A stretch of DNA of 36,677 nt. Origin: an uncultured Bacteroidales bacterium. Lineage in GTDB: Bacteria; Bacteroidota; Bacteroidia; Bacteroidales; FEN-979. Each line of letters starts with the position of its first letter. Position 1 is the stretch's first letter. Positions 2,990 through 30,305 of the stretch are shown here, in pieces. The position numbers and the translations under genes are program-made. The stretch is taken from the NCBI GenBank assembly GCA_903875045.1, contig CAIQUS010000187.1:1-36677 (forward strand), in the 5' to 3' direction. A model generated the notes under the pieces. That model saw only the letters and a program-made list of their open reading frames with translations, ran no database searches and was not told the DNA's origin.

Positions 2990-2999
2990 GCGAATACAG

Positions 3000-8813: not shown

Positions 8814-8815
8814 AA

Positions 8816-8847
8816 ATTTACGATTTACGATTGACGATTTACGATTG
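8816..8847. repeat. 7-base tandem repeat ATTTACG in the mqnD-decarboxylase gap
   Basis: Four 7-base units (ATTTACG, ATTTACG, ATTGACG, ATTTACG) and a partial fifth directly follow the GTGACGG array. Same period, different sequence. The block fills most of the gap before the decarboxylase gene, where I see no -7 promoter motif. Confidence 0.8.
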
Positions 8848-12870: not shown

Positions 12871-15800
12871 ATGAGAAAAATTTTCCTTTCTTTGGTAGTT
12901 CTGATTGCAGCCAGTTACTTTTCAATTGGCCAGACAATTTTAACCCAAAATTTCGAAGCCGCCTGGACGATACCATCATCGTTAAGCCCTGCCTGGTCAG
13001 GAACAGTTACCCCGGCCGATAATCAATGGCAACGGGATGATTACACAACAGGGTGGGCCGGCTCATCAGGAGCCTATACACCTGCGGGTGCCAGTGCCAC
13101 ATTGCACTCAGCCCGGTTTCACAGCTATGATGCAGGCAGCGGAACAACCGGAGACTTTATTTCACCTGTCTTCGACTTGTCGGCTTTCACTCCCGGAGTT
13201 GTAAAAACAGAATTTTACTATATCAACACCAGCGGAACCGATGTTCTAAACATATATTCCTCTAATGATGGAGGATCTACATGGTCGGCCGCCCTCATGG
13301 GTGCAGCAGGTGTTCAGGCAGCCTGGACAAAATATACTGTTACCTTGCCAGGAAATTCAGCTACGACCAAAATAAAATTCACAGCAACCAGCGACTGGGG
13401 AACAACCGATATCGGAGTGGATGAAGTCAGGATTTATAATCCAATACCAGCAAATGCCCCACCGATTGCATTTACCGCCACAGCTGTCACCCAGGCAACG
13501 ATGACCATCGGGTGGACTGACAATTCGACCAATGAAATATCTTTCAGGGTATACCGCTCTTCAGACAACATCACCTTTACACAGGTTGGAACAGATATCG
13601 CATCAACTTCAACCGGAACAACAGGAACCTTATATTCACAGCCGCAAACCGGTTTGAACGCCGGAGTAACCTATTATTACCGTATTGCAGCCGTATTAGA
13701 CCTTGAATCAACTTATCTGACAGGCAGCCAGACTACCCTCCCCCCTGTTCCGATGAGTGGTACCAAAACAGTTGGACCAACAGGAGATTTCTTTACCTTA
13801 ACCGCAGCTTTCCAATCATTAAACGGAAATGGAGTGAATGGTCCTGTTAACCTCGTGCTGCAATCAACCTATCTGAGCAGTGCTGAACCTGCATTCCCAA
13901 TACCGGTGATGACCATTCCGGGAGCAAGTTCAACGAATAAAATTGTTGTATATCCTTCTGCCACCGGACTTTCGATCACCAGCGCCAGTGCAACCGGGAC
14001 GATCAATATGACCGGTGTGACATACGTGACCTTCGATGGTCGTGTAAATGCGACGGGAACAACCAAAAATCTGGTTATTGAAAACACCAATGTGGCTGGT
14101 TATGCCATTCAATTTATCAACGATTCCAGATTCAACACTTTACAATATTGCCAGATCCAGGGCGTAGAAACTTCAACCACCCTTGGCGTCGTATTGTTTT
14201 CAACCACCACCGGCACTTTGGGGAACAGCAACAACCTGATTGATAATTGCGATCTGAAAGACGGAGTTACGACCCCTGCCAACCTCATCTATTCTGCCGG
14301 AACACCCGGTGTTCCCAATCTCAGCAATACAGTTTCAAACTGTAATCTTTTCAATTGGTTTCTTGCCACAACCACCATACAGACTGCGGCCATCAATATT
14401 CTCGCCGGGAATTCAGACTGGACTATTACCGCAAACAGTTTTTACCAAACAGCGGTTCGCACATACACCAGTTCGGGTACGGTATCAATCATCAACGTCC
14501 TGAATGCTTCAAATGGTTATAATTTCACCATAACCAATAACTTTTTCGGCGGGACAGCCCCATCCTGCGGAGGCACTCCGATGACCTTAACTACAACAAC
14601 AGGAACATTGGGATATCGTCTGGTCGCACTTTCCTGCGCAAATGGTGTTCCGTCAACTTTCCAGGGTAACACGATTTCAAATATTTCATTGACCACAGCC
14701 CTGACAGGTTTTTATGCCCTTGTTTACCACGTGAACGGCCACATCAATATTATCAATAATACGATTGGTTCTCAAACAGCTACCAACAACATTTCGGTAA
14801 CGAATTCCGGAACAGGTGCTGCCACATTCTGCGCCCTCCTTGCCGGAGGAGGTTCCCCCTTTTCAAACATCAATATATCAGGGAATAACTTTGGCGGAAT
14901 TTCTGTTTCTGCCTCCAGTACCGGCTCAGCAGGTGGAAGAATTCTGTATGCACAGGCTGTTCAGGGAAGTACCCTTTTGATCAACAATAACCTGATCGGA
15001 GGTACTACAGCCAACAGCATTATGCAGAATTCAAACAATATTCTGACCGGAATCATGATCCTTAATCCTACAATCGGGAATATCATTACAAATAACACCA
15101 TCAGAAATTTATCCCATAATAATATTGGGGTAACCGGCTCGATCACCGGTATCAATGTCCAATCAAACGGGGCACATACCATTACCGGAAACACCATCTA
15201 CAATTTAACAACAAACTCAACCAATATCGCTATCAATAATTCGGCATCCATTGTTGGTTTGACAATGACCGCTTTGACTACACCGGGTACTGTTGTTTCA
15301 CAGAATACCATTTACAACCTGGTTAACACCAACACCACAGTTGCAGGCGGGGTTAACGGGATGTATTTTGCTACCCCCACATTTGGACAGGCGACCATTT
15401 CTAGGAATTTTGTCCATAGTTTTTCGACTGCTTCAGCTACTTCAGTGCAGACGGGGATATTTGTTCCTAATACCGGAAATGCCATGGTATATAATAACAT
15501 GGTACGACTTGGATTTGATGCAGCCGGAGCTGCCCAGACCAATTCGGTGCAAATCAACGGGATTTATAAAGCATCTACAGGAAATGTCGGAGTGTATTTT
15601 AACTCTGTTTACATTGGTGGTACCGGTGTTGTGAGTGGCGCTGTTAATAGTTATGCATATCGCAGGATTGCATCAGCCCCGGCTGATACGGTGGTGAACA
15701 ACATTTTCATTAATAACCGGTCAAATGCCAGCGGAACAGGGAAACATTATGGCATTTTCACCAATGCTGCCGACCTCCTTTGTAATTTCAACCTTTACCA

Positions 15801-18800
15801 GACAACGGGTACAGGCGGAGTGTTCGGGATTGTCAATGTTACAGATTTTGCAACCATCGCCGCCTGGAGAGGTGGTACAAACCTGGATAATGCCAGCGGA
15901 TATGGTGACCCGAATTTTGTTTTACCGACCGGTACAAGTACAACAGTTGATTTGCATGTTGTTCAGAGCAACACAGCCATTGAGGCAGCAGGAACTCCGA
16001 TCGCAGTAGTAACCAGTGATTATGACGGAGCTGCCAGAGCAGGACTGACACCTGTTGATATTGGTGCCGATGCAGGAAGTTTCATCAGCAGCGGCGATAT
16101 CTTCCCTCCAAATATTCTTTATACACCGCTTACAAGTGGAACGACAGCTAACCGGGTTCTGACGAATTTTGCAGCAATTACAGATAATGTGGCTGTGTCG
16201 GGTGGTGCAAGTCTTCCCAGGCTATATTACAAAAAGTCGGGTGACAATAATGCCTTTGTGGGCAATACCAGTACCGACAATGGCTGGAAATATGTTGTTG
16301 CCAGCAATGCATCCAGCCCTTACTCATTTACAGTGAATTATGGTATTATCAACGGTGGCAGTGTCGTAAACGGAGATATCATTCAGTATTTTGTTGCTGC
16401 CCAGGATGCGGCGAATAATCTTAGCTCAAACTTCGGCGGTGCCGGAGCAAGCGGCAATCCTCCTGTTCAAAATGTGAATGCAGCCCCGGCTACACCACTG
16501 TCCTATACAATTGCCGGAACTTTAACAAGCCCGATTACTGTTGGAACGGGAGGAACATATCCTTCCCTGACAGGTGTAGGTGGAGCATTTGCAGCCATCA
16601 ATGCAGGAACAGCAGCGGGTAACCTGGTCATACAGGTACTCAGCGACCTTACGGAAGACGGGACAAATGCCTTGAATCCGTTGAGTGAAGATCCGTTTGG
16701 TTCAAACTTCACCATTACTATTCAGCCTAATAACACAACCGAAAAAGTCATTTCAGGAGCTGTTGCGACTGGCATGATCCGGTTGAATGGAACTGACAGA
16801 GTTACCATCGATGGCAGAAGCGGCGGAAGCGGGAAATATTTACGTTTCAGAAATACCAACACAGCAAATCCGACATTGACTTTGCTCAATGATGCCACAA
16901 ATAACACCATCAGGAACTGTTATTTTGAAGGTGCCAATACAGGAACAACCTCAGGAGTGGTGTTGCTAAGCAATACAACGGGATCAACAGGAAATGACAA
17001 TAATACATTTACACAGAATAGCATTCGTGACCGCAGTGATGCGGCCGGTGTTCCTGCAAACCTGGTTTATTCCTTAGGAACTGCCCTCAAAGAGAATTCA
17101 GACATCACGTTTTCCAGCAATGAGTTCTTCAATTTCAGCAATGCCGGTTTATTTGTTTCTGCTACCGGAAACGGGAATAACTGGACTATCAGCGGTAACA
17201 GTTTTTATAATAATCTCGCTACTGCTCCTGCAACAACGCAGTATTCGATTTATTTCATCCCGGGAACTGCTTCAAGCAACAGTACCATAACCGGAAATTA
17301 TATTGGAGGACAAGCTGCCAACTGTGTTGGAGCTGCATGGGTCAATACCGGAGCGGTCGCCTTCTATGGAATTTATCTCACGACGGGTATCGTTACGCCA
17401 ACTTCAGTGCAGAACAATACCATTCAGAATATCACCATGTCGAGCATCAGTGGCAGTTCTTTTGGCGGTATCTATATTACGGGTGGAGACTATAACGTTG
17501 GCACAATTACCGGGAATACCATCGGGCATCCCACTACAGCTGGTTCAATCACCCTTGCCGGAACAACAGCCAGCAGGGCTATCTATAACAGTGGAACCGG
17601 TTATATCAATCTTTTCAATAATCTTTGTGCCAATATTAACCGGACAAGTACAACTGCTACTGTTGGCTTCAGAACAATTGAAATCACCGCAGGGACCCTG
17701 AACATCACCAATAACACTGTACGGGATATTTTATCAGCAGCTCCTTCTAACTGGACTGACTATGATGCAGCCTGTGTGGGTATTGAAATGAGGTCAACCC
17801 TTGCAGGACAGCTTATTGAAAACAATAGCATCTATAACCTGACTGCCTCAGATATTGCTTCTACTGTTATAGTTACGGCTCATGGAATCAGGATAGCTTC
17901 GGGGACAGGAAGTGTTCTCAGAAACAATATATACAATATCGTTAACCTGAATCCGGGCAGTGCCGCAAACCTTTTTGGGATCAACATTGCCGGTGGAATC
18001 TGGAAGATTGCGAATAATCTTATCTCTGTTGGTACGGGCAGTGGAAACCAGGTAAATATCAGCGGAATATATGATAACAACACCAGCATCAATGAAATAT
18101 ATTTTAACAGTATTAATATTTCAGGAACTGCTACATCAGGAGCTAATAACACTTTTGCCATAAACAAGAACAGTTCTTCGTTCCTCACTGCCAAGGATAA
18201 CATCTTTTTCAACCAGAGAACAGGTGGAACAGGATTGCATTGTGCAGTTAAACTCACAACCAATGCTTCCTTTATCTCAAATTATAATGATCTGTTCTCT
18301 ACCGGAGCTCAGTTAGGCATGATAGGCGCATCCAATTATGCTAACCTTGCAGCCTGGAGAACCGGATCAGGTCAGGATGCCAACTCGGTTTCCGTCAATC
18401 CTCAGTTTGTTTCAACAACTGATTTACATACTGTAAAACCAGAACTGAACAACACAGGTATCGCAATCCCGGGAATAACCACTGATTATGCCATGGTCAC
18501 ACGTAGTAATCCTCCGGATATCGGAGCTTATGAATTCACTGGAATACCTGATGTTACCACGGTAGCTGCAACAGTTGTCGGTAATTCCACTGCCACGCTC
18601 AATGGAATTGTGACAGCAAACAATGAAATGGTTGTGACCGGCTTCGAATATGGCCTGACCACAGCCTACGGAACGACAATTGCCGGTGTACCAGCTACTA
18701 TAGGTGGAATGACTCCGACTAATTTCTCAGGTAATGTTTCAGGTCTGACTCCATGTACCGTGTATCACTTCAGGGCAAAAGGTGTGGTGGGCTCAACCCC

Positions 18801-21800
18801 TGCATACGGTTTGGACATGACCTTTACGACAACATGTCCACTCCCGACTGTGGTAACCACTGCGGCAACACTTGTCACCGCAGCCACTGCAACATTGAAT
18901 GGAACTGTTAATGCAAATAATACAACCACAACTGTGTCCTTTGACTATGGTTTGACCACAGCTTATGGAACCAATGTGGCCGGTGTCCCTGTTACAATCA
19001 CAGGAAGTATCGTTACTGCATCGCTGGCCAATATCACAGGCCTTGCACCAAACACCCTGTATCACTTCAGAATCAATGGAGTCAATGGTGGTGGCACAAT
19101 CAATGGGAATGACCTGACTTTCACAACAGCTGCGGCCCCTCCCACTGTTACGACTACAGCAGCCTCGCCTATTGGTACAACTTCAGCTACATTGAACGGA
19201 ATTGTAAATGCAAACAACTCATCTACAACGGTTTCATTTGAATGGGGTCTCACAACGGGATACGGGAATACTGTTGCAGGTGTTCCATCACCGGTTACAG
19301 GCAGTACAAATACGAATGTCAGCGCTGCAATTATTGGTTTGGTTACCAACACCACCTACCATTTCAGGGTAACAGGAACTAATTCAGCCGGAACATCCAA
19401 TGGTGGCGACCTTACCTTCCTCACTGGTTGTCCTCAACCTGCAGCTGCCGGAACGATTACCGGCCCGGTCAATGTTTGTTTGAACGGAACAGGTTATATT
19501 TACACTGTTCCTGCTATCGCAAATGCGACCTCCTACGTATGGACATTACCAACCGGAGCAACTATCACAGCCGGAAGCAATACCAATTCGATTACTGTCA
19601 GTTATTCTGGTACTGCGACCTCAGGGAATGTGACCGTTTATGGATCAAGTATTTGCGGAAATGGCACAGTTTCGCCAAACCTTGCAGTAACTGTTAACCC
19701 ACTTCCTGTACCTACCATCACAGGTCCGGCAACAGCTTGTGCTGCATCAACAGGAAATGTTTATACAACTCAAACCGGAATGACTGGTTACACCTGGACT
19801 GTTTCTGCCGGCGGCGTGATTGATGCAGGTGCAGGCACCAATTCGGTCACAGTAACCTGGAACACACTGGGTGCCCAGACTGTCAGCGTTAATTACATCA
19901 ATGGAAACGGTTGTACAGCTGCACTTGCAACTTCCTATCCTGTTACCGTTAACGCACGTCCTGTCCCAACCGTTACCGGACCAGCAACACTCTGTGCCGG
20001 ATCAACCGGAAATGTGTACACAACCCAGACCGGGATGACCGGTTATGTATGGACACTTTCAGCTGGTGGCGTTATCACCGCAGGGGCTGGAACCAATGCA
20101 ATAACTGTTACCTGGAATACCGCAGGAGCCCAGACAGTGTGTGTAAATTACACCGGTGCAAATGGATGCAATGCAGCAGCCCCGGCTTGCAGCAATGTAA
20201 CAGTCAACGCATTACCAGTTCCGTCCATCACCGGTTCGGGTACGGTATGTCTGAATTCTTCCGGTCATATTTACACAACCCAGGCGGGCATGACAGGCTA
20301 TACCTGGACAATTTCAGCCGGTGGAACAATCCTCTCTGGTTCCGGAACCAACAGTATTACAACAAGTTGGTCGACTACAGGACCTAAAACGATCACTGTT
20401 AACTACACCAATGCCAATGGTTGTACTGCTTTAACACCTGGTTCACTGCCAGTTACTGTTGATCCTTTACCTACCCCCACTATTACAGGACCGAGTAGTG
20501 TTTGCCAGGGCGCAACAGGTGTTGTTTATACAACCCAGGCCGGAATGACCAACTACAACTGGACAGTATCTGCAGGCGGAACCATTACCGCAGGAGGTAC
20601 ATCTACCAGCAATACGGTAACCGTAACCTGGACAACTGCCGGGGCAAAAACAGTTGCCGTGAACTACACAAATGCATTCGGATGTTCAGCTCCGATCTCA
20701 ACTTCTTACCCTGTCAGCGTCAATGCGACACCTGTTCCGACTATCGGTAGTACCAATAATCCTTGTGTTGGATCAACCAACAACATTTATTACACTGAAA
20801 GTGGAATGACAGGATATGTATGGACAGTTTCTGCCGGAGGCACCATCGTTTCAGGCCAGGGCACCAGTACCCTGAATGTGACATGGAATCTTCTGGGTAC
20901 GCAGACTGTCAGTGTGAACTATACGAATACTTCAGGTTGCCAGTCACCAACACCTGCAGTTTACACTCTGTTTGTTAACTCACCGCCAAATGCTGCAGGG
21001 GCCATTACCGGAACTGCAACTGTTTGTGCCGGAACCAGCGGGGTGGCCTATTCAACCACACCGATCGTTGGTGTTACCTCCTATTCATGGACGGTACCAT
21101 CGGGAGCAACCGTTGCCACAGGTACAGGAACAACCAATATCACCGTTGATTTCGGAAGTTCAGCCGTAACAGGCAATGTTACTGTAGCAGGTGTAAACCA
21201 GTGCGGAAACGGTCCATCTTCGTCATTTGCAGTAACTGTGAATCCGATGCCTGCAGCTGCCGGAACAATTACCGGGCCTGCATCAGTTTGTGCCGGAGCC
21301 ACAGGTGTTGCTTACAGTGTTGGTACAATTGCCAATGCAACATCGTACGTTTGGACTGTTCCAGTCGGTGTAGTTATCACCTCCGGTGCCACAACAAAAA
21401 ACATTGTGGTAACTTTTGGTCCAGGTTCGGGCGTGGGCATTATTACTGTGAAGGGTACCAATGCCTGCGGAAGCGGTACGGTATCTCCCAATTTCCTTGT
21501 AACCGTCAACGAAATCCCTGCTGCCCCTGTTGTAACTGTTGCAGGCAATGTGCTTACCAGCAGTGCACCCACAGGCAACCAGTGGTATTATGAAGGTACT
21601 GCCATTCCCGGGGCAACTGGTCAATCCTATACGGTTATCACCAATACAGGAAATTACTGGTGTGTTGTGACCATCAACGGATGCTCATCCCCGATTTCCA
21701 ACAAGGTTTGGGTGGTTATTACCGGAGTACAGGAGTTGCAAAGCAGCAATTTCAGTATTTACCCTGTGCCCAACGATGGACAGTTTACGGTTTCAATTAC

Positions 21801-21996
21801 GAGTCCGGTAGCGGAATCGTTTACCATCACTGTGTACAACCAACTGGGTGCAAAGATCTATGAGCTTGGCGATGTCCGGGTAAATGGCACATTTGAAAAG
21901 CAGATTGATCTCCGCCCGATTGCAAGTGGCGTGTATTCAGTAGTATTCCTCAACAGTGAACATAAGGTTGTGAGGAAGGTAATTGTGAATAAATAA
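12871..21996 (+). CDS. Giant T9SS surface protein: jelly-roll, FN3, two beta-helices, 8 PKD-like modules
   Basis: A 3041-residue secreted protein. In order: signal peptide (1-20, ending SIGQT); jelly-roll domain (about 22-192, ending DIGVDEVRIYN); FN3 (about 198-292); parallel beta-helix region 1 rich in NNxI turns (about 300-1070); Ig-like domain (about 1074-1205); beta-helix region 2 (about 1214-1888); three FN3-like repeats sharing EYGLTTAYGT-type and TxYHFR motifs (1895, 1991 and 2090 on); eight PKD-like modules (2187-2883); an Ig-like module (GNVLTSSAPTGNQWYYEG); and a T9SS type A tail (about 2954-3041, IYPVPNDGQFTV to KVIVNK). The PKD modules alternate in two subtypes, in the order A-B5-A-A. 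Most B modules are 255 bases long. I expect surface attachment and adhesion or polymer binding; the beta-helices could bind or cleave polysaccharide, but no catalytic motif is evident. It heads a set of three related genes and ends in a strong terminator. Confidence 0.88.
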   Translation: MRKIFLSLVVLIAASYFSIGQTILTQNFEAAWTIPSSLSPAWSGTVTPADNQWQRDDYTTGWAGSSGAYTPAGASATLHSARFHSYDAGSGTTGDFISPVFDLSAFTPGVVKTEFYYINTSGTDVLNIYSSNDGGSTWSAALMGAAGVQAAWTKYTVTLPGNSATTKIKFTATSDWGTTDIGVDEVRIYNPIPANAPPIAFTATAVTQATMTIGWTDNSTNEISFRVYRSSDNITFTQVGTDIASTSTGTTGTLYSQPQTGLNAGVTYYYRIAAVLDLESTYLTGSQTTLPPVPMSGTKTVGPTGDFFTLTAAFQSLNGNGVNGPVNLVLQSTYLSSAEPAFPIPVMTIPGASSTNKIVVYPSATGLSITSASATGTINMTGVTYVTFDGRVNATGTTKNLVIENTNVAGYAIQFINDSRFNTLQYCQIQGVETSTTLGVVLFSTTTGTLGNSNNLIDNCDLKDGVTTPANLIYSAGTPGVPNLSNTVSNCNLFNWFLATTTIQTAAINILAGNSDWTITANSFYQTAVRTYTSSGTVSIINVLNASNGYNFTITNNFFGGTAPSCGGTPMTLTTTTGTLGYRLVALSCANGVPSTFQGNTISNISLTTALTGFYALVYHVNGHINIINNTIGSQTATNNISVTNSGTGAATFCALLAGGGSPFSNINISGNNFGGISVSASSTGSAGGRILYAQAVQGSTLLINNNLIGGTTANSIMQNSNNILTGIMILNPTIGNIITNNTIRNLSHNNIGVTGSITGINVQSNGAHTITGNTIYNLTTNSTNIAINNSASIVGLTMTALTTPGTVVSQNTIYNLVNTNTTVAGGVNGMYFATPTFGQATISRNFVHSFSTASATSVQTGIFVPNTGNAMVYNNMVRLGFDAAGAAQTNSVQINGIYKASTGNVGVYFNSVYIGGTGVVSGAVNSYAYRRIASAPADTVVNNIFINNRSNASGTGKHYGIFTNAADLLCNFNLYQTTGTGGVFGIVNVTDFATIAAWRGGTNLDNASGYGDPNFVLPTGTSTTVDLHVVQSNTAIEAAGTPIAVVTSDYDGAARAGLTPVDIGADAGSFISSGDIFPPNILYTPLTSGTTANRVLTNFAAITDNVAVSGGASLPRLYYKKSGDNNAFVGNTSTDNGWKYVVASNASSPYSFTVNYGIINGGSVVNGDIIQYFVAAQDAANNLSSNFGGAGASGNPPVQNVNAAPATPLSYTIAGTLTSPITVGTGGTYPSLTGVGGAFAAINAGTAAGNLVIQVLSDLTEDGTNALNPLSEDPFGSNFTITIQPNNTTEKVISGAVATGMIRLNGTDRVTIDGRSGGSGKYLRFRNTNTANPTLTLLNDATNNTIRNCYFEGANTGTTSGVVLLSNTTGSTGNDNNTFTQNSIRDRSDAAGVPANLVYSLGTALKENSDITFSSNEFFNFSNAGLFVSATGNGNNWTISGNSFYNNLATAPATTQYSIYFIPGTASSNSTITGNYIGGQAANCVGAAWVNTGAVAFYGIYLTTGIVTPTSVQNNTIQNITMSSISGSSFGGIYITGGDYNVGTITGNTIGHPTTAGSITLAGTTASRAIYNSGTGYINLFNNLCANINRTSTTATVGFRTIEITAGTLNITNNTVRDILSAAPSNWTDYDAACVGIEMRSTLAGQLIENNSIYNLTASDIASTVIVTAHGIRIASGTGSVLRNNIYNIVNLNPGSAANLFGINIAGGIWKIANNLISVGTGSGNQVNISGIYDNNTSINEIYFNSINISGTATSGANNTFAINKNSSSFLTAKDNIFFNQRTGGTGLHCAVKLTTNASFISNYNDLFSTGAQLGMIGASNYANLAAWRTGSGQDANSVSVNPQFVSTTDLHTVKPELNNTGIAIPGITTDYAMVTRSNPPDIGAYEFTGIPDVTTVAATVVGNSTATLNGIVTANNEMVVTGFEYGLTTAYGTTIAGVPATIGGMTPTNFSGNVSGLTPCTVYHFRAKGVVGSTPAYGLDMTFTTTCPLPTVVTTAATLVTAATATLNGTVNANNTTTTVSFDYGLTTAYGTNVAGVPVTITGSIVTASLANITGLAPNTLYHFRINGVNGGGTINGNDLTFTTAAAPPTVTTTAASPIGTTSATLNGIVNANNSSTTVSFEWGLTTGYGNTVAGVPSPVTGSTNTNVSAAIIGLVTNTTYHFRVTGTNSAGTSNGGDLTFLTGCPQPAAAGTITGPVNVCLNGTGYIYTVPAIANATSYVWTLPTGATITAGSNTNSITVSYSGTATSGNVTVYGSSICGNGTVSPNLAVTVNPLPVPTITGPATACAASTGNVYTTQTGMTGYTWTVSAGGVIDAGAGTNSVTVTWNTLGAQTVSVNYINGNGCTAALATSYPVTVNARPVPTVTGPATLCAGSTGNVYTTQTGMTGYVWTLSAGGVITAGAGTNAITVTWNTAGAQTVCVNYTGANGCNAAAPACSNVTVNALPVPSITGSGTVCLNSSGHIYTTQAGMTGYTWTISAGGTILSGSGTNSITTSWSTTGPKTITVNYTNANGCTALTPGSLPVTVDPLPTPTITGPSSVCQGATGVVYTTQAGMTNYNWTVSAGGTITAGGTSTSNTVTVTWTTAGAKTVAVNYTNAFGCSAPISTSYPVSVNATPVPTIGSTNNPCVGSTNNIYYTESGMTGYVWTVSAGGTIVSGQGTSTLNVTWNLLGTQTVSVNYTNTSGCQSPTPAVYTLFVNSPPNAAGAITGTATVCAGTSGVAYSTTPIVGVTSYSWTVPSGATVATGTGTTNITVDFGSSAVTGNVTVAGVNQCGNGPSSSFAVTVNPMPAAAGTITGPASVCAGATGVAYSVGTIANATSYVWTVPVGVVITSGATTKNIVVTFGPGSGVGIITVKGTNACGSGTVSPNFLVTVNEIPAAPVVTVAGNVLTSSAPTGNQWYYEGTAIPGATGQSYTVITNTGNYWCVVTINGCSSPISNKVWVVITGVQELQSSNFSIYPVPNDGQFTVSITSPVAESFTITVYNQLGAKIYELGDVRVNGTFEKQIDLRPIASGVYSVVFLNSEHKVVRKVIVNK
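19429..21519 (+). repeat. PKD-like module array A-B5-A-A in the 3041-residue gene
   Basis: Modules begin near 19429 (A), 19708, 19963, 20218, 20473 and 20734 (B), 20989 and 21253 (A). B modules carry GNVYTTQxGMTGYxW; A modules carry GVAYSVPxIxNATSYxW. Spacing of the B starts is 255, 255, 255, 261 and 255 bases. The last B (20734) starts with the variant IGSTNNPC. Confidence 0.85.
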
Positions 21997-22001
21997 AACT
22001 G

Positions 22002-22032
22002 TGACGCGTGACACGTGACGCGTCACGCGTCA
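22002..22032. repeat. GTGACGCG-type inverted repeat after the 3041-residue gene
   Basis: TGACGCGTGAC and its exact complement GTCACGCGTCA flank a 9-base loop, giving an 11-base-pair stem. GTGACGCGTCAC within it is also a perfect 12-base palindrome. It lies 5 bases after the stop codon and about 10 bases before the T-tracted terminator. The GTGACG core resembles the GTGACGG array at the mqnD stop. Confidence 0.75.
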
Positions 22033-22042
22033 TGCTTGAAAG

Positions 22043-22076
22043 AAAGCCCTGCCGGAAACGGTGGGGCTTTTTTTTT
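22043..22076 (+). terminator. Rho-independent terminator of the 3041-residue gene
   Basis: AAAGCCC pairs with GGGCTTT, continuing through two wobble pairs to CCG/CGG, closed by a GAAA tetraloop: a 12-base-pair stem. A run of nine T follows from 22068. The same 28-base hairpin recurs at 27883. Confidence 0.92.
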
Positions 22077-22134
22077 ACAGCATTATCTTTTCATTAATTC
22101 TCAACAAATCTTAGGCACTGTGGCTGATACTTTA

Positions 22135-22142
22135 TATTTTTG
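22135..22142 (+). promoter_or_regulatory. -7 promoter element for the 1869-residue gene
   Basis: TATTTTTG lies 91 bases before the ATG, downstream of the terminator hairpin. No good -33 element. The rest of the 237-base gap is AT-rich. Confidence 0.5.
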
Positions 22143-22233
22143 TATTTCTAATATTTTGATAAAGTATTAAAAGCTTTTTTTCTCTTTTTTCAATCTGAAC
22201 AAATCAAACCGTTATAATCAAAAAAACAATCAA

Positions 22234-25200
22234 ATGAGAAAATTTACATTATTAGCCATTTTTATCACGGCTGTTTTATCGCTGACAATTCAAGGCATCA
22301 CAAATGGCCAGGTATTGCTGGATGAGAATTTTTCGTATCCCGCCGGTGATCTTATCACTGCCCACGGATGGGTTGCTCATTCGGTCGGGGGAACCAACCC
22401 CATTACTGTGAATGCCACCGGACTTACTTTTCCCGGTTACATTGATTCAGGTATTGGCCTTGCCGCGCTGGTAGATAACACCGGAGAAGATGACAACACT
22501 CCATTTGCCAACCAGTCCGCAGGTATTGTTTATGTGGGTTTAATGGTCAACGTAACTACCACAGCTGCCGGATATTTCTTTCATTTGGGTGGTACCCCTA
22601 TCGGCACCACCTTCAGGGGCAAGGTATTCATGGATGCTACCAACCATTTCGGGGTGAGTGTTGGCAGTAATACCGGTACCTTCGCTGCAGCAACGTATAA
22701 TCCAGGGCAGACCTATCTCCTCGTTCTAAAATATGAAATCGTTGCAGGGACCAATAACGATATCGTTAGTTTATTCATTTTCGACGGAGCTATTCCTTCT
22801 ACCGAACCTGCAGTTCCCAGCATCGGTCCGCTTACTGATGCGACGATGACCGACATAAACCCCGGAGCCGTTGCCTTGCGCCAGTTTTCCGCAACCCAAA
22901 ACTTTCTGGCTGACGGAATTCGCGTTGGTTTATCATGGTCTGATGTGTTGGGTTCAGCCATTGTACCGCCTACCATCCAGGCACAGAACATCACCTTTAG
23001 TGGCATCACAACAACCGGCATGACAGCCAACTGGACCAATGGTAATGGCGCCAAGCGTATCGTCATCATGAACACATCGAATAGTTTCACCAATCCGGCC
23101 GATGGTACTGATCCAAGTGCAAACACTATATACAGCGGGTCCGGCGAACAAGTGGTTTACAACAACACCGGAAGCACAGTGGGGGTTACTGGTCTTACCG
23201 GAAGCACCACTTACTGGTTCAGAGTTTATGAGTACAACGGAGCAGGGGCCACCACAAAATACCTGACCACAACGGCAACACTGAACCCCAACAGCCAGGT
23301 TACTGCTACTGCTGCCGTAGCTCCTTCCATTACCCTGCCAACATCAGTATCCATCACCAATACCTCTGCCGTACTCGGTGGTACCATTACCGCAGATGGT
23401 GGTTCACCCATCACCGAACGTGGTACTGTCTGGAAAACCACTGCCGGCGTCACAATTACAGACAACCCACTTGCAGAGGGAGGCTTTACGGTTGCCACTT
23501 TTTCGCATTTACGTTCTGCCCTGCCACCGAAAACACAAATCTATTTTAAAGCATATTCTGCAAATTCAGTTGGGACAAGCCTTACAACGGAATCTTCTTT
23601 TTTCACCCTGGCTGATGAACCCACTTCTCACGTTACAGGGTTTGCAGCTGTATCCGGCGGAACAACCAGTATCAATTTATCCTGGTCAACCATTGCTGCA
23701 GGAGCCGACGGTTATCTGATCCTTCAGAAAACCGGAGCAGCTGCCCCCACAGGAATTCCGGTTGATGCAAACGGTTACACTGTTGGAAGTGTTTTGGGCG
23801 ATGGAACAGTCGCTGCATTGGTAACCCCCGGTTCCACATTGTTAAAAACAATCACCGGGCTGTCACCTGCCACGCAATATTCTTTTACAATAATACCTTT
23901 TGCCTGGGATGGAGCCAACAACCCAACATATAATTATTTTACATCTCCAACCATTCCAAGTGCCAGTGCAACTACCACGGGAACCGGCCCGGTTACTTAC
24001 ACATGGCAGGGAGCAGATAACGGGTTATGGACCACTGCTACAAACTGGAACCCATCACGTACCACCCCGGCAACAAGCGACATCCTGCAATTTAATGATG
24101 GTACCTCTAAAACTGTAACAGCCGTTCCTACACAAACAATCGGCAAACTGGTGATGGCCAACAATACCACGATCAACCTTCAAAGCAGTGCTGTAACAAC
24201 GCTCACACTCAGCGGAGTGGCCGGTGCAGACCTTGACATCCCGACCGGATGCGCTTTGAATCTGAATGCAGCAAATGCCATAACGATTTCAGTCGCAACC
24301 ACTGCCACAGCAAGCATCAGCGGGAACATGACATTTTCGTCAACAATTGCAACAGGACACCGTATGATTGCCGTTGATGCGGGTGCAATCACTTTCAATA
24401 GCGGCGCCATTTTTACAGCAGGCACTTTTTTCTCGGGAAATGCTTTTGGCGGCTCAGCCTCAGTCCCGGTTGCTACAGCAAATTCTGTCATTTTTGCCAG
24501 CGGATCAACCTACCTGGTTCAGGCCGGAAGCAATCCGTTTTCTTTAACAGCCCCTGCCAGCGTGGTTGTTTTTCAGGCAGGAAGTCTTTATAAAGTCACA
24601 GGCAACAGTACTCCGGCATTTTCAGGCAGAACTTATGCCAACTTCGAAATGGATGCCACGGGTGTTACGCTGACTACCTCCGGAGGAAGTCCGGTTTCAC
24701 TTGACAACATTACTGTTACCAACGGAACCTTGAATATCAATATGACCGGGCCAACCAGCGGAATTCATCAGATTCACGGAAATATCGCAGTAGCAACCGG
24801 AGGGGTTCTGAATTTTTCCCCGGCTTCGGCAGGCACGGTTACTTTTAACGGCACTGCTAACCAATCCATTTCAGGGGTTGGTCCCATTACAACCGGTGCC
24901 AATTCAATCATTGAAATATCGAATGCCAACGGAGTCAATCTCAATACTCCGGTTACCATTAATGGTCAGTTAAAACTCACCAATGGATTATTCGCCCTGG
25001 GATCCAGCAACCTCCTTTTAGGAACTGCTGCAACCATCACAGGCACTCCTTCCTCATCCGCCATGATCGTTGCTACCGGTACGGGGCAATTGCAAAAGGG
25101 TTTTGCCACCGGATTCACAGGTAGTTTTCTCTATCCGGTCGGGGATAACACGGTAACCCCTGAATATTCACCGGTTACACTTAATTTTACCAGTGGAACA

Positions 25201-27843
25201 TTTGCGGCAGGAAATTATGCAGGAGTAAATCTTGTTAATTCTAAATATCCGTCTGACCCGAATACAGTAAGTTACCTGAACCGCTATTGGAATGTAAGCT
25301 CCTCTGCCATTACTGCTTTTAACTGTTCAGCCATGTTTCAGTTTGTTCCGGCAGATGTGGTTGGAAACGAGGCACAGATGTTTTCCATGCAGGTTGTTCC
25401 GACCCCCTTTACCAGCTTTGGTCTTGTAAACAATGCCCTGCACCAGGTCACGACACCGGGACTTACCTCATTCGGAACCTATACCGGATCGCAGCCAGCC
25501 CCCTCTGTGATTACGTTACCCGCCAATTCGATCACTGCCACTACGGCAACCCTCAATGGTGAAATAATTGCAAACTGGAATACCTCAGCTGTGAGTTTTG
25601 AATACGGACTTACCACAAGTTATGGCACAGTGGTTCCCGGAACTCCGGCATCGGTTACAGGCGGTGGCACAAACACTGTTCTTGCGAACATCACCGGGCT
25701 AACACTGAATACAGTATATCATTTCAGGGTTATCGGCACCAATTCATCCGGAATTTCTTATGGTGCTGACCTGAGTTTCTCAACCGGTTGTCCGATACCT
25801 GCCGGGGCAGGCACCATCACAGGCCCGGCCAATGTTTGCCTTGGAGGAACAGGATATGTGTATACAGTTCCTGCAATCAATTATGCTACCACCTATAATT
25901 GGACCATTCCAGCCGGTGCAGTGATCACATCCGGTGCAAATACAAATACCATCACAGTAAATTTCGCGACAGGTGCTGTTTCAGGGAATATTTCGGTTTC
26001 CGGATCCAGTATATGCGGCAACGGTGCAGGGTCCCCGAACATGGCTGTTACGGTAAATCCTTTGCCAGTACCAACCATCACCGGTCCGGCCAATGCCTGC
26101 ATCAATTCGACAGGAAATGTATATACCACCCAACCAGGGATGACCGGGTATACATGGACAGTTTCGGCAGGTGGAACGATTGTGGGAGGATCAACCACCA
26201 ACGCCATCACAGTTACCTGGACAACGGCCGGTGCAAAAACTGTTACGGTCAGTTATACGAACAGTGTTGGCTGTACCGCCGCCTTGCCTGCATCATATCC
26301 TGTTACGGTCATCGCATTTCCAACCCCAACCATTACAGGCCCCAGTGTGGTTTGTGCGAATGCGGCGAATATCGTGTACACAACTGAGGCTGGTATGACC
26401 AATTACACATGGGCCGTTTCTATCGGAGGAACCATTATTGCCGGTGCCGGAACCAATGCCATCACGGTTTCCTGGCCATACGCAGGGAGCAGAACGGTAA
26501 GTGTCACCTATACAAATCCCACCGGATGTTCGGCACTCGCCCCAACTATTTACAATGTAACGGTAAATCCTGCTGCAGTGCCATTTATTGGAAGCAATAA
26601 CAACCCATGTATCAACTCTACAAATAACCAATACATTACTAACAGCGGCATGTTGAATTATGTATGGGGAATTTCAGCGGGAGGTGCCATCGTTTCTGGT
26701 CAGGGAACAAGTACCATCAATGTAACCTGGACTGGCATCGGTGCTCAATGGGTTAGCATCACTTTCACCAACACCTATGGATGTACCCCGGCAACACCTT
26801 ATGTATACAACCTGTTTGTAAACCCGTTGCCTAATGCAGCAGGTGCCATCACAGGTACTGCTGCTGTTTGTGCAGGAACCAACGGTGTAGCTTATTCTTG
26901 TGCGGAAATACCCAATGCAACCTCCTATTCGTGGACACTACCGGCAGGCGCAAGTATCGCCAGCGGCGCAGGAACCAAAGACATTTCAGTCAATTTTGGC
27001 GTATCTGCGGTTTCAGGAAATATTATCGTTGCAGGTAATAACAGTTGCGGGAATGGTACACCTTCTCCGGCTTTTGCCGTTGTGATCAATCCAATACCTG
27101 CTGCCGCAGGAGCTGTTACCGGCCCTTCATCTGTTTGTGCAGGGGCAACGGGTGTTGCATACAGCGTTCCAACCATCGCCAACGCCACCACTTATATTTG
27201 GACTGTTCCAGCTGGCGCCGTTATTACTTCCGGTGCCGGAACCAAAAACATTCTGGTAACTTTTGGCCCGGCAACCGGCACAGGGGTGATTACCGTGAAA
27301 GGATCAAACACCTGTGGAAGTGGTGCAGTTTCCGCCAATTTCAATGTTACGATGAGTTCAATTCCTGCTGCACCTGTCGTTACTGTATCCGGCAATGTGC
27401 TAACCAGCAGTGCCCCTACCGGCAACCAATGGTATTTTGAAGGCACTGCCATTCCGGGTGCCACAGGGAAAAACTATACGGTTATCAACAATACCGGCAA
27501 TTATTGGTGTGTGGTTACACTCAATGGATGTTCATCCCCCATTTCCAACAAGGTTTGGATGGTCATTACCGGTGTACAGGAGTTGCAAGGCAGTAACTTT
27601 AATATTTATCCGGTGCCAAACGATGGCAGGTTCACCATTTCTATTGTCAGCCCGGTGGAGGACACCTTTACTGTCATTGTATACAACCAATTGGGTGCGA
27701 AGATATATGAACTCGGCGATGTGGCTGTCAGTGGCACCTTTGAAAAACAGATCGATCTGCGCCCGATTGCAAACGGTATCTATTCAGTGATGTTCCTTAA
27801 CAAAGAACATAAGGTTGTTAAAAAGGTCCTGGTTAATAGATAA
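22234..27843 (+). CDS. Large T9SS surface protein: FN3 domains, beta-solenoid, 6 PKD-like modules
   Basis: A 1869-residue secreted protein paralogous to the upstream giant in its C-terminal half. In order: signal peptide (1-26, ending GITNGQ); a jelly-roll region (about 27-245); FN3-like domains (about 249-355, 366-458 and 462-585); a TWQGADNGLWTTATNW segment (about 590) of the kind that opens autotransporter-like beta-solenoids; a solenoid to about 1085; one FN3-like repeat (1089-1185) with the EYGLTTSYGT motif of the upstream protein; six PKD-like modules (1186-1711) in the order A-B3-A-A; an Ig-like module; and a T9SS type A tail (about 1779-1869). Over the last 89 residues I count about 19 differences from the 3041-residue protein. 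Role inferred: cell-surface adhesion or matrix binding. The stop codon is followed at once by a TTGAAAA repeat array and then the same terminator hairpin as upstream. Confidence 0.88.
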   Translation: MRKFTLLAIFITAVLSLTIQGITNGQVLLDENFSYPAGDLITAHGWVAHSVGGTNPITVNATGLTFPGYIDSGIGLAALVDNTGEDDNTPFANQSAGIVYVGLMVNVTTTAAGYFFHLGGTPIGTTFRGKVFMDATNHFGVSVGSNTGTFAAATYNPGQTYLLVLKYEIVAGTNNDIVSLFIFDGAIPSTEPAVPSIGPLTDATMTDINPGAVALRQFSATQNFLADGIRVGLSWSDVLGSAIVPPTIQAQNITFSGITTTGMTANWTNGNGAKRIVIMNTSNSFTNPADGTDPSANTIYSGSGEQVVYNNTGSTVGVTGLTGSTTYWFRVYEYNGAGATTKYLTTTATLNPNSQVTATAAVAPSITLPTSVSITNTSAVLGGTITADGGSPITERGTVWKTTAGVTITDNPLAEGGFTVATFSHLRSALPPKTQIYFKAYSANSVGTSLTTESSFFTLADEPTSHVTGFAAVSGGTTSINLSWSTIAAGADGYLILQKTGAAAPTGIPVDANGYTVGSVLGDGTVAALVTPGSTLLKTITGLSPATQYSFTIIPFAWDGANNPTYNYFTSPTIPSASATTTGTGPVTYTWQGADNGLWTTATNWNPSRTTPATSDILQFNDGTSKTVTAVPTQTIGKLVMANNTTINLQSSAVTTLTLSGVAGADLDIPTGCALNLNAANAITISVATTATASISGNMTFSSTIATGHRMIAVDAGAITFNSGAIFTAGTFFSGNAFGGSASVPVATANSVIFASGSTYLVQAGSNPFSLTAPASVVVFQAGSLYKVTGNSTPAFSGRTYANFEMDATGVTLTTSGGSPVSLDNITVTNGTLNINMTGPTSGIHQIHGNIAVATGGVLNFSPASAGTVTFNGTANQSISGVGPITTGANSIIEISNANGVNLNTPVTINGQLKLTNGLFALGSSNLLLGTAATITGTPSSSAMIVATGTGQLQKGFATGFTGSFLYPVGDNTVTPEYSPVTLNFTSGTFAAGNYAGVNLVNSKYPSDPNTVSYLNRYWNVSSSAITAFNCSAMFQFVPADVVGNEAQMFSMQVVPTPFTSFGLVNNALHQVTTPGLTSFGTYTGSQPAPSVITLPANSITATTATLNGEIIANWNTSAVSFEYGLTTSYGTVVPGTPASVTGGGTNTVLANITGLTLNTVYHFRVIGTNSSGISYGADLSFSTGCPIPAGAGTITGPANVCLGGTGYVYTVPAINYATTYNWTIPAGAVITSGANTNTITVNFATGAVSGNISVSGSSICGNGAGSPNMAVTVNPLPVPTITGPANACINSTGNVYTTQPGMTGYTWTVSAGGTIVGGSTTNAITVTWTTAGAKTVTVSYTNSVGCTAALPASYPVTVIAFPTPTITGPSVVCANAANIVYTTEAGMTNYTWAVSIGGTIIAGAGTNAITVSWPYAGSRTVSVTYTNPTGCSALAPTIYNVTVNPAAVPFIGSNNNPCINSTNNQYITNSGMLNYVWGISAGGAIVSGQGTSTINVTWTGIGAQWVSITFTNTYGCTPATPYVYNLFVNPLPNAAGAITGTAAVCAGTNGVAYSCAEIPNATSYSWTLPAGASIASGAGTKDISVNFGVSAVSGNIIVAGNNSCGNGTPSPAFAVVINPIPAAAGAVTGPSSVCAGATGVAYSVPTIANATTYIWTVPAGAVITSGAGTKNILVTFGPATGTGVITVKGSNTCGSGAVSANFNVTMSSIPAAPVVTVSGNVLTSSAPTGNQWYFEGTAIPGATGKNYTVINNTGNYWCVVTLNGCSSPISNKVWMVITGVQELQGSNFNIYPVPNDGRFTISIVSPVEDTFTVIVYNQLGAKIYELGDVAVSGTFEKQIDLRPIANGIYSVMFLNKEHKVVKKVLVNR
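25789..27366 (+). repeat. PKD-like module array A-B3-A-A in the 1869-residue gene
   Basis: Modules start near 25789 (A), 26068, 26323 and 26578 (B, each 255 bases), 26833 and 27100 (A). The third B begins with the variant IGSNNNPC, matching the last B of the upstream gene in both position and motif. Confidence 0.85.
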
Positions 27844-27882
27844 TTGAAAATTGAAAACCGAAAATTGAAAGTTGAAAGTTGA
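27843..27882. repeat. 7-base TTGAAAA/TTGAAAG repeats after the 1869-residue gene
   Basis: Directly after the TAA stop (27841-27843) run units such as TTGAAAA, TTGAAAG and TTGAAAG with one or two imperfect copies. They reach to the first base of the terminator stem. The unit matches that at the mqnE stop (154-174). Confidence 0.75.
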
Positions 27883-27912
27883 AAAGCCCTGCCGGAAACG
27901 GTGGGGCTTTTT
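27883..27912 (+). terminator. Rho-independent terminator of the 1869-residue gene
   Basis: The same AAAGCCC...GGGCTTT hairpin with GAAA tetraloop as at 22043, base for base over the 28-base stem-loop. Its T-tract is shorter (five T). Confidence 0.88.
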
Positions 27913-27960
27913 AATTGACCCGCAGAAAGAAAAATTTTCGGGTATGTCAATAAAAGAATT

Positions 27961-27989
27961 TTTGATCGTATTTTTGTGTTGTATTTTTG
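27961..27989 (+). promoter_or_regulatory. Promoter with two -7 elements before the cohesin/PKD gene
   Basis: TATTTTTG occurs at 27969-27976 and again at 27982-27989. TTTG at 27961-27964 lies 17 bases before the second copy. Use of the second copy would start the transcript only a few bases before the ATG at 28002. Confidence 0.5.
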
Positions 27990-28001
27990 AATAACTGAAT
28001 A

Positions 28002-30305
28002 ATGCGACAAAAAGCACTCCTATTTTATGCGATAGCCGGTTTACTGACACTGTTTTCCCCGCAGTTTCTTTTTGCGCGTAACGCCCCTGTTACAACGGCA
28101 GGTTCGTCAACCATTTGCCCCGGTTCTCCTGTCACTGTTCCAATCACCGTTACTGGTTTCACTTCAATCAAAGCCATTACGCTCCGGCTTGATTATGATC
28201 CGACTCTTTTGACTTTCGTCAACTATACAAATTTGAACCCATCCATTTCTGGTACCTCTGTCAATTATATCAATGTAAGCCCTACGCTGACTAAGATTAT
28301 GATTGTTTGGGCAGATATTGCTGCATTGTCCCTTTCAGATGGATCAAAATTGCTGGATTTGAATTTCACCTTGATTGCAGGTTCGCCTTCTGTCATATTT
28401 AACAATACCGACAACAGCGGAGGTGATTGTGAATACGCAGACGAGAATGGTGCTTCCATGAACGATATCCCTACAGCTACCTATTATTTCAATGCTGCAA
28501 TTACAAATCTCACCCCGCCGCCGGCAGGAGCTATTACCGGCGCCAACACTTTGTGTGTGGGCACAACCAATGTCCCCTATAGTGTTCCGGTCATCGCGAA
28601 TGCCACTGCATATATCTGGACCGTTCCTGTCGGCGGATCGATCATTTCAGGCAGCAATACAAATTCAATTACGGTGAATTACTCAAATTCGGCAGTTTCC
28701 GGAAACATAACAGTCAAAGGGACGAATAGTTGTGGCCAGGGTGTTCCATCCATTCTTGCTGTTACAATCAATCCTTTGCCCGTTCCTGCCATTTCAGGAC
28801 CGGTATCTGTTTGCTCAGGTTCACCCGGAAATGTATATACCACAGAACAGGGAATGACCGGTTATGTCTGGATCGTTTCGGGTGGCGGATCAATTACATC
28901 CGGTGGCGGTACCACAAACAATACAGCAACCATTACATGGAATGTCACAACTCTCCAAAGTGTAAGTGTTAATTACACCAATCCTGCAGGATGTTCTGCC
29001 CAAAACCCAACCGTCTTACCGGTTGCCGTCAATCCTTTGCCATCACCCACCATCACCGGCCAGGCAGTTGTTTGTGAATCGGCAACAGGGGTCTCCTATA
29101 CGACAGAACCAGGTATGATAAATTATCTTTGGACAACCTCGTCAGGCGGAACAATCACCTCAGGATCCGGAACAAACAATATTCTGGTATCATGGATGAG
29201 TGCTGGTATTCAATCCGTGAATGTAAATTACACCAGTGGGAATGGTTGTACGGCTAATGCCCCCGTGTCAAAAAATGTCACAGTGAATCCCTTCCCGGGT
29301 GCGGCAGGCACTATTACCGGAAATGCATCCGTGTGTGCAGGAGACAATGGGATTTCCTATGCTACACCCGCTATATCCAATGCATCGACGTATACCTGGA
29401 CGCTCCCCGCAGGGGCAAACATCGTGAACGGGGCTGGCACTAATAACATTACGGTAAATTTCAGCACCTCTGCGGTTGCTGGTAACATCACCGTAGTGGG
29501 AAATAATTCCTGCGGCAATGGCACCTCATCCCCGGCATTCCCTGTTACAATTTCACAAATGCCCGTGGCTGCAGGAACCATTACCGGCACCGATGTTGTT
29601 TGTGCCGGCACCAATGGGGTAATTTACAGTGTACCCGCCATTACAAATGCGACAACCTACGATTGGACTATTCCTTCCGGTGCTGTGATCACCTCTGGCG
29701 CCGGAACCAGCCAGATTGTTGTAAGCTTCAGCAGCACACCCGGAACCGGAACTTTCACGGTAAAGGGAACCAGCGTATGCGGAAGTGGTGCTGTTTCTCC
29801 CGACTTCAGTGTAACCATGGTCGCCTCCCAGGCAGCTCCTGTTGTAACCACAGCGGGGCCATTGCTTACAAGCAGCACCTTAACAGGTAATCAATGGTAT
29901 TATGAAGGCACAGGTGCCATTTCAGGGGCAACAGGACAAACTTATCTGGCCACAATAACCGGATGGTATTGGACAGTAGTTCAAGGTACCGGATGTCCAT
30001 GGCTTGAATCAAACCACGTTTATGTCCTGTTTACCGGTCAGGATGAAATGAAAAGCCAAAACATACTTTTATACCCGGTCCCCGGTGACGGATTATTTAC
30101 CGTTTCGATAACTTCACCGGAACCTGAAAAGTTTACAATTCTGGTTTACAATCAACTCGGTATAAAAATTTTTGAACGTAACGATCTCCTCGTAACCGGA
30201 ACCATCGAGCAAACAATCGACATCCGCCCTGTTACGGCAGGCATCTATTCTGTGGTATTTATGTGCAGTGATGGGACTGTCGTAAAGAAGGTGCTTGTAA
30301 GATGA
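28002..30305 (+). CDS. T9SS surface protein: cohesin-like domain plus 5 PKD-like modules
   Basis: A 767-residue secreted protein. A signal peptide (1-25, ending LFARNA) is followed by a cohesin-type beta-sandwich (about 27-170: PVTVPITVTGFTSIKAITLR, LDYDPTLLTFVN, DGSKLLDLNFTLI). Five PKD-like modules (about 174-607) come next in the order A-B2-A-A, then a shortened Ig-like module (GNQWYYEGTGAISGATGQ) and a T9SS type A tail (about 685-767, LYPVPGDGLFTV to VKKVLVR). A cohesin-like domain in a T9SS protein suggests protein-protein or carbohydrate-complex binding at the surface; there is no dockerin in the window. Its TGA overlaps the ATG of the next gene (ATGA at 30302-30305), so the two products are probably made together, and no terminator separates them. 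Confidence 0.86.
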   Translation: MRQKALLFYAIAGLLTLFSPQFLFARNAPVTTAGSSTICPGSPVTVPITVTGFTSIKAITLRLDYDPTLLTFVNYTNLNPSISGTSVNYINVSPTLTKIMIVWADIAALSLSDGSKLLDLNFTLIAGSPSVIFNNTDNSGGDCEYADENGASMNDIPTATYYFNAAITNLTPPPAGAITGANTLCVGTTNVPYSVPVIANATAYIWTVPVGGSIISGSNTNSITVNYSNSAVSGNITVKGTNSCGQGVPSILAVTINPLPVPAISGPVSVCSGSPGNVYTTEQGMTGYVWIVSGGGSITSGGGTTNNTATITWNVTTLQSVSVNYTNPAGCSAQNPTVLPVAVNPLPSPTITGQAVVCESATGVSYTTEPGMINYLWTTSSGGTITSGSGTNNILVSWMSAGIQSVNVNYTSGNGCTANAPVSKNVTVNPFPGAAGTITGNASVCAGDNGISYATPAISNASTYTWTLPAGANIVNGAGTNNITVNFSTSAVAGNITVVGNNSCGNGTSSPAFPVTISQMPVAAGTITGTDVVCAGTNGVIYSVPAITNATTYDWTIPSGAVITSGAGTSQIVVSFSSTPGTGTFTVKGTSVCGSGAVSPDFSVTMVASQAAPVVTTAGPLLTSSTLTGNQWYYEGTGAISGATGQTYLATITGWYWTVVQGTGCPWLESNHVYVLFTGQDEMKSQNILLYPVPGDGLFTVSITSPEPEKFTILVYNQLGIKIFERNDLLVTGTIEQTIDIRPVTAGIYSVVFMCSDGTVVKKVLVR
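28521..29837 (+). repeat. PKD-like module array A-B2-A-A in the cohesin/PKD gene
   Basis: Modules start near 28521 (A), 28782 (B, 261 bases), 29043 (B, 255 bases), 29298 (A) and 29565 (A). The IGSxNNPC variant of the two larger genes is absent. Confidence 0.82.

Follow-up and report, generated by a model that had tools for sequence, protein, structure and literature searches.

The three consecutive genes and their products

This study was concerned with three consecutive genes in the window, which is the whole stretch of 36,677 nucleotides that was analysed, from an uncultured Bacteroidales bacterium. The window is the beginning of contig C187 of the source genome (5.96 Mb in 253 contigs). 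Each gene encodes a protein that consists of a head, a stalk of repeated modules of two classes (A and B), an immunoglobulin-like (Ig-like) domain and a sorting tail of the type IX secretion system (T9SS). In each stalk one A module (A1) opens the array, a run of B modules follows and two A modules (A2 and A3) close it, and the number of B modules, n, is 5, 3 and 2 in proteins 1, 2 and 3. The explanation that we favour, and consider probable, is that different heads are carried by copies of one inherited stalk, and that the B run is resized and sets the distance of the head from the surface. The source genome, also called the own genome, is coded G000 and its relatives have other G numbers; C denotes a contig and L a locus. 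The features in the window are as follows.

12871..21996, + strand: protein 1, 3041 aa, with a long head, stalk A-B5-A-A, Ig-like domain and T9SS tail
19456..19716, + strand: protein 1 A1, the opening A module
19717..21003, + strand: protein 1 B run, five modules; the last B is 20743-21003, with the opening IGSTNNPC
21004..21513, + strand: protein 1 A2 and A3, the closing A modules
21514..21759, + strand: protein 1 Ig-like domain between A3 and the sorting tail, with a GNQW motif ("Ig-like" is our own label, without a family match)
21757..21987, + strand: protein 1 Por_Secre_tail (T9SS sorting domain)
22044..22069, + strand: 26-base hairpin terminator core 3' of protein 1
22234..27843, + strand: protein 2, 1869 aa, with a head that includes an fn3 domain, stalk A-B3-A-A, Ig-like domain and T9SS tail
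25816..26076, + strand: protein 2 A1
26077..26847, + strand: protein 2 B run, three modules; the last B is 26587-26847, with the opening IGSNNNPC
26848..27360, + strand: protein 2 A2 and A3
27361..27606, + strand: protein 2 Ig-like domain, 89% identical to its protein 1 counterpart
27604..27834, + strand: protein 2 Por_Secre_tail
27884..27909, + strand: second 26-base terminator core, 3' of protein 2
28002..30305, + strand: protein 3, 767 aa, with a cohesin-like head, stalk A-B2-A-A, Ig-like domain and T9SS tail
28104..28391, + strand: protein 3 cohesin-like domain (PF00963, above cut-off)
28533..28790, + strand: protein 3 A1
28791..29312, + strand: protein 3 B run, two modules
29313..29825, + strand: protein 3 A2 and A3
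29826..30068, + strand: protein 3 Ig-like domain
30069..30299, + strand: protein 3 Por_Secre_tail

In the Pfam search the protein 2 head had an fn3 match above the cut-off, and the protein 1 head had MAM-like, beta-helix and fn3-like matches, every one of which was under its curated cut-off. Por_Secre_tail scored 38.1, 33.0 and 30.3 bits in proteins 1, 2 and 3 against a cut-off of 27; TIGR04183 exceeded its cut-off in proteins 2 and 3, and protein 1 was not among its listed matches. By their C-terminal sorting domain the three proteins would be T9SS type A cargo, for which the tail suggests export to the surface and anchoring there. The own genome encodes at least 150 T9SS sorting tails (150 of 357 candidates were scored and every one was a match).

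Two module classes in a common order

The Pfam family PF19408 (PKD_6) matched the three arrays with 371.9, 309.1 and 271.5 bits (proteins 1, 2 and 3; cut-off 25), and the match, in 8, 6 and 5 stretches respectively, spans the whole array. When the arrays were cut at the conserved start of the module, all 19 modules were found in the orders A-B5-A-A, A-B3-A-A and A-B2-A-A that an original prediction, made from the same DNA, had claimed. The prediction also described two clear subtypes, and in the tree of the 19 aligned modules A and B split with a support of 100/100. The mean identity is 55% for A-A, 53% for B-B and 36% for A-B pairs, and the minimum A-A identity (48.1%) is higher than the maximum A-B identity (47.5%). 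The CGxG motif that had been assigned to A is carried by all nine A modules. The B label is defined by the motif GM[TIL]xYxW, so the presence of this motif in 10 of 10 B modules holds by construction, and the tree is independent of the motif.

The last B module has features of its own. As predicted, proteins 1 and 2 have the opening IGSxNNPC in their last B module and protein 3 lacks it, and these two last B modules pair in the tree with a support of 100/99. The B modules had been described as almost all 255 bases long. Measured from start to start, five of the ten are exactly 255 bases, and the description fails for the other five, which are 261 bases; three of these five are last B modules, where the joint to the following A is two residues longer. 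Good support was obtained on only 3 of the 16 inner branches of the tree. The A2 modules were grouped (84/85), as were the A3 modules (80/63); the A1 modules did not form one group, and such a group was not rejected (approximately unbiased test, p 0.39). Given the module counts, the chance of the observed order is 1/56, 1/20 and 1/10 in proteins 1, 2 and 3, values that are not independent since the proteins are paralogues.

How general the order is

The order was analysed in 91 complete mixed arrays from 36 genomes. Arrays of fewer than four modules (A-B-A and A-B-B proteins), arrays cut by a contig end and unclassable single modules were left out of these counts and of those for the two smaller samples below. 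The B modules formed a single block in 86 arrays, compared with 25.5 expected by shuffling, and the order A-Bn-AA occurred in 50, compared with 4.1 expected. Most of the 91 arrays were found by the stalk query, which favours the pattern, and related arrays are not independent.

A fairer sample was a PF19408 scan of the own genome (150 of 282 candidates scored) and of G020 (150 of 162 scored). Among its 15 mixed arrays of at least four modules, seven were A-Bn-AA, three of which are the window's own, three were A-Bn-A, two were A-Bn and three had other orders. Eleven further arrays were reached via head searches (A-Bn-A in seven, A-Bn-AA in one, others in three), a sample that is biased against A-Bn-AA because the head orthologues with full stalks had mostly been fetched earlier. 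A-only and B-only arrays also occur. With cut tails excluded, 96 of 105 mixed arrays are followed by the Ig-like motif, compared with 1 of 15 A-only and 0 of 10 B-only arrays.

Two stronger rules were considered and rejected. An absolute A-Bn-AA rule is ruled out by the A-Bn-A and other arrays in the scans and among the orthologues. A rule for the whole phylum was dropped as well, as the stalk query matched 6 of the 296 genomes in a phylum sample at E <= 1e-30, own genome included; the match was full-length in the own genome only and partial in the other five (four candidates scored per genome).

Modules specific to a position

The comparison of single positions used only arrays whose last modules read A-Bn-AA. 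They number 53, come from 22 genomes (the own genome among them) and have n = 1 to 8; 52 are followed by the Ig-like motif and one is cut. The set includes G000:C129, which was first read as A-B6-AA and is an unsure member, as its opening A was unrecognised at a later cut-off. The nearest module outside the own protein came from the same position for 52 of 53 A1, 52 of 53 A2 and 52 of 53 A3 modules, for 48 of 49 last B modules and for 44 of 49 first B modules. Middle B modules intermix with first B modules (of 51, the nearest was a middle B for 37 and a first B for 14). Each of A1, A2, A3 and the last B thus acts as a lineage of its own, and orthologues supply much of this signal.

Between proteins with non-homologous heads, the mean identity of A2 to A2 is 55.7% (47.1 and 49.5% to the other A positions), that of A3 to A3 is 50.7% (45.0 and 49.5%) and that of last B to last B is 47.7% (compared with 45.4 and 44.7%). 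The opening GSxNxPC was found in at least 11 of 49 last B modules and in 0 of 104 other B modules, some module starts being trimmed. We read this as position-specific identity that passes down with the gene and fades with distance.

Orthologues and the number of B modules

Twelve proteins, own included, are at least 64% identical over the second half of the protein 2 head. The orthologue in G001 is truncated by a contig end, the head of the G002 orthologue is split over two frames, and two more relatives (G011 and G015) are cut ahead of the stalk. Among the eight same-genus proteins whose end is complete, AA closes the array in four, and the other four (the orthologues in G002, G003, G016 and G018) have one closing A, of the A2 type. 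In genus g3 (G020, G030 and G033) n is 1 in all three orthologues.

For protein 3, four same-genus proteins with a head identity of at least 63% have n = 2 (own), 3 (G006), 4 (G014) and 5 (G012), and the G014 orthologue has one closing A only, of the A3 type. Distant relatives of the head carry AB (G017 and G021), AAA (G036) or ABBABBBAA (G035). No module was seen with ten of the 30 best-matching heads, several of which are cut by contig ends. The relatives of the protein 1 head have A-B3-AA (G030 and G032), an array ending in A-B9-AA (G022), BBBBBABA (G035) or an unclear order (G008), and others are cut. The original prediction had named unrelated module orders in orthologues as a finding that would speak against it; such orders were found in distant relatives and not in near ones. 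The variation in repeat number was seen between species, with one genome per species compared.

Growth of the B run

An ice-binding-headed paralogue, G000:C129 (L028:1171-5289), has a DNA identity of 93% between B1 and B3 and 94% between B2 and B4, while neighbouring modules are 63-64% identical. This pattern shows the duplication of a two-module B unit of about 489 bases. Across the fetched arrays, an identity of at least 85% was reached by 7 of 424 adjacent B-B pairs, and recent B duplications are therefore uncommon.

Within one window protein the best B-B DNA identity is 67.5%, and B-B residue identity is 75% at most. Thus, the differences in B number in the window are old, and collapsed assembly repeats are unlikely to have altered n there. 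Tandem Repeats Finder detected no module-scale tandem repeat in the window. Fast length switching in the window was dropped as a candidate on the same two grounds.

Very long B arrays, with 20, 16 and 14 B modules in a row, were seen in large proteins of G020, from a related genus (L260:3988-11586, L241:3440-13216 and L066:3-13916). Two proteins at contig ends, L027:7910-10555 (end of G000:C243) and L198:1-2796 (G000:C6), have identical last 120 residues and both read A-B-B; they are perhaps a single gene represented twice in the assembly, or a very recent copy.

Shared 3' ends of proteins 1 and 2

Apart from an fn3-like stretch adjoining the stalk (49% over 139 residues), proteins 1 and 2 have unrelated heads. 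The protein 2 head is 65-74% identical to its orthologues. The Ig-like domain and tail of protein 2 are nearest to those of protein 1, at 89% and 77%, compared with 48-76% and 37-67% for ten head orthologues. In its last B and A2, protein 2 is closer to the orthologues than to protein 1 (last B up to 78% vs 66%). The tail of L039_644, a G012 protein with a different head, reaches 75%, and sorting tails may therefore follow classes of their own.

The 26-base terminator core is identical after proteins 1 and 2. A search of the assembly with up to 3 mismatches gave no further copy, and the reversed control had no match. The two copies fold at about -25 to -26 kcal/mol, with z scores of -5.75 and -6.55. 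The simplest reading of the common 3' end is that it arose by tandem copying or conversion. The third codon positions of the Ig-like domain and tail agree at only 57.5%, so the sharing would not be recent. The gene for a PD40 propeller (965 aa) begins within the stop region of protein 3, with an ATGA overlap at 30302-30305, and these two genes are thus probably co-transcribed, in contrast to proteins 1 and 2, each of which is followed by a terminator hairpin. Short intergenic tandem repeats lie at 8788-8846 and at about 22000-22035, with the units GGTGACG and ATTTACG, and there is a GTGACGCGTGAC-like stretch 3' of protein 1.

The shared order could also be history only, with tandem gene copies that kept an ancestral order and a B number that drifts without function. 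The Ig-like domains and the assembly-unique terminator common to proteins 1 and 2 favour this explanation, as does the similarity position by position, which tracks relatedness. However, the same order is found under different heads and in G056 and G058, which belong to other families (A-B3-AA in both; they are the only two genomes of the order Bacteroidales outside the family that were opened). In addition, the modules of proteins with non-homologous heads share only about 45-56%, and the single block of B modules is kept in the 86 mixed arrays noted above. We consider a purely historical origin of the order unlikely.

Heads and genomic setting

The heads found on this stalk above the cut-offs included cohesin (protein 3), ice-binding (C129; PF11999, E 6e-72), Laminin_G_3 (G003 and G026) and GEVED (G014 and G058). 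Five of 20 heads beyond the window had no Pfam match at E <= 0.001. In six genomes an epimerase gene and the PD40 propeller gene flank the site on one contig (window 11632-33199; L041, L181, L184, L187 and L095). G000 and G006 have three genes at the site, G017 and G018 have two, G002 has three frames and G016 a single fused one. Some of the proteins encoded there have the stalk, some a single A and some no module, and the heads vary between species.

The own genome has 24 cohesin and 6 dockerin matches. Its contig C128 (L196:1252-15290) encodes three consecutive proteins with a common tail that bears a dockerin motif, and the third of these (1853 aa) carries a relative of the protein 2 head, at 51% over 1094 aa. 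Docking of type I dockerins on the protein 3 cohesin was rejected as a general mechanism. There were six Dockerin_1 matches in the own genome, three in G006 and none in G012 and G014, both of which have the orthologue.

A wider proposal, which as a whole we hold to be doubtful, is that the block A1-B(n)-A2-A3-Ig-tail forms a display arm that is portable and specific to the lineage. In this view, recombination between neighbouring genes with different heads would exchange the 3' part, the B run would be resized by unit duplication, and the epimerase-propeller site would be where combinations of head and stalk are built and replaced. The cohesin-headed copy might then serve as a socket to which dockerin-ended proteins of that cell bind, among them the one with a relative of the protein 2 head.

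Two more T9SS-tailed proteins are encoded on the minus strand of the window (1325-5483), a trypsin-like protein and a C10 peptidase with PKD and cleaved-adhesin matches.

Structure of the stalk

An AlphaFold model of the protein 3 stalk, made with 13 relatives, had a mean predicted local distance difference test score (pLDDT) of 86. Its best matches among solved structures were segments of GhpA; for the 508-residue fragment 6, Foldseek gave E = 2.8e-17 and template modelling (TM) scores of 0.57 (query) and 0.66 (target). The HMMER sequence-profile match to GhpA had E = 9.1e-34 in 12 stretches. When protein 3 was searched as a single sequence, there was no solved relative at E <= 0.01. The model supports a stalk that would be a rod of beta-sandwich modules, and we infer the rod shape from the model together with the resemblance to GhpA. 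Each B module would add roughly 4 nm, given the size of such domains.

A spacer role of the stalk is likely. This reading gains weight because the model resembles the rod segments of GhpA and because PF19408 was built as a stalk family, one of six new ones in the available part of a survey of fibrillar adhesins (PMC8286594). Alternatively, the B modules themselves might bind, in which case the run would act as a multivalent adhesive patch instead of a spacer. The family does contain B-only arrays of 5 to 20 modules, which agrees with this, and the part of the survey considered here grants that the boundary between stalk and adhesive domains can be blurred (PMC8286594). The B modules of mixed arrays sit between head and tail, which is the position expected of a stalk, and the survey classes PF19408 as such; judged by this position and family class, an adhesive patch is quite improbable.

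Assessment of the favoured explanation

The favoured explanation is that of different heads on an inherited stalk with a resizable B run. The stalk would consist of an opening A, the B run, one or two closing A modules, the Ig-like domain and the sorting tail. Its end pieces, with sequence signatures of their own, would be the A modules and the last B. The B run may gain and lose units via unequal recombination between neighbouring B modules, and the B number would set the stand-off of the head from the cell surface.

Several results weigh against this explanation. First, the order is less strict than it is in the window. The sample that was not picked by the stalk gives a looser and better rule, in which one A usually opens the array and one or two usually close it, and only 3 of the 30 best matches of the protein 3 cohesin head, own included, have exactly A-Bn-AA. 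Thus the "fixed frame" of the original prediction was too strong, given that 7 of the 15 mixed arrays in the scanned genomes are A-Bn-AA and 3 are A-Bn-A, and that some near orthologues have one closing A. Secondly, relatives of the protein 2 head also occur without a stalk. Seven of them (L188 to L194, 43-48% identity in the second half of the head, one in the own genome) have no module at all, and the same is true of the own-genome C128 protein, which is 57% identical in that half. Third, n is 3 in nine of nine same-genus protein 2 sequences, own included, so length is not constantly changing there. The "expandable centre" that had been proposed therefore agrees with the protein 3 orthologues and not with those of protein 2 within the genus. 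Fourth, when proteins with homologous heads (E < 1e-3) were removed, nearest neighbours at the same position dropped to 46 of 53 for A1, 50 of 53 for A2, 20 of 53 for A3, 33 of 49 for the first B and 22 of 49 for the last B. In the comparison of non-homologous heads, the mean A1-A1 identity of 46.0% is no higher than that of A1-A2 (47.1%; 45.0% for the remaining pairing). Lastly, with a predicted TM score (pTM) of 0.46, the model gives neither a reliable arrangement of the modules along the rod nor the angles between them, and the HMMER bias corrections for GhpA exceed most of the stretch scores, so that the E-value may flatter the match.

It is usual to count a stalk family as a single repeated domain. 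In this family the subtypes tend to hold set places and growth is mainly central. If the explanation is correct, the number of B modules could predict reach from sequence, and the family would offer many natural combinations of head and length on one stalk for T9SS surface-display experiments.

Comparison with known systems

GhpA, the grappling hook protein A of Aureispira sp. CCB-QB1, resembles the stalks in its tandem modules of the same fold. It differs in that its PDB sequence has 5898 residues and the aligned parts are 18-25% identical, and the likeness implies no hook or assembly for the window proteins.

The fibrillar-adhesin-like proteins of the survey have tandem stalk domains, from the same Pfam family, between head and anchor. 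In its available part, the survey counts Por_Secre_tail as an anchor and names Ice_binding, which is present in C129, as adhesive (PMC8286594). The window proteins have one of the stalk domains that it lists, and nothing in the heads of proteins 1 and 2 could be identified as an adhesive domain by comparison with a partial list of its 27 adhesive families. The same part of the survey describes no subtypes within PKD_6 and no order of subtypes (PMC8286594).

The nearest functional model, as far as the available parts of the two reports go, is that of the periscope proteins, in which a head is held off the surface by a variable number of folded modules (PMC8201768; PMC9704523). The periscope survey required repeats longer than 50 residues with an identity of at least 80% (PMC8201768), whereas the B modules of the window have a mean identity of 53% and a maximum of 75%. 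In addition, the variable run of the window stalks has distinct end modules. The paralogue C129, unlike the window, does hold a repeat with 93-94% DNA identity.

No treatment of this module order was found among the listed titles and starts of abstracts, a scope outside which lie most subscription journals and all preprints. The apparent novelty lies in the ordering of subtypes around a middle of variable length, in the occurrence of this order across one family beneath many heads, and in the traces that resizing and sharing of the stalk have left. Overall, the stalk, which recurs in related species under different heads, looks like a reusable display arm and a variant of known bacterial stalks, not a new kind of system.

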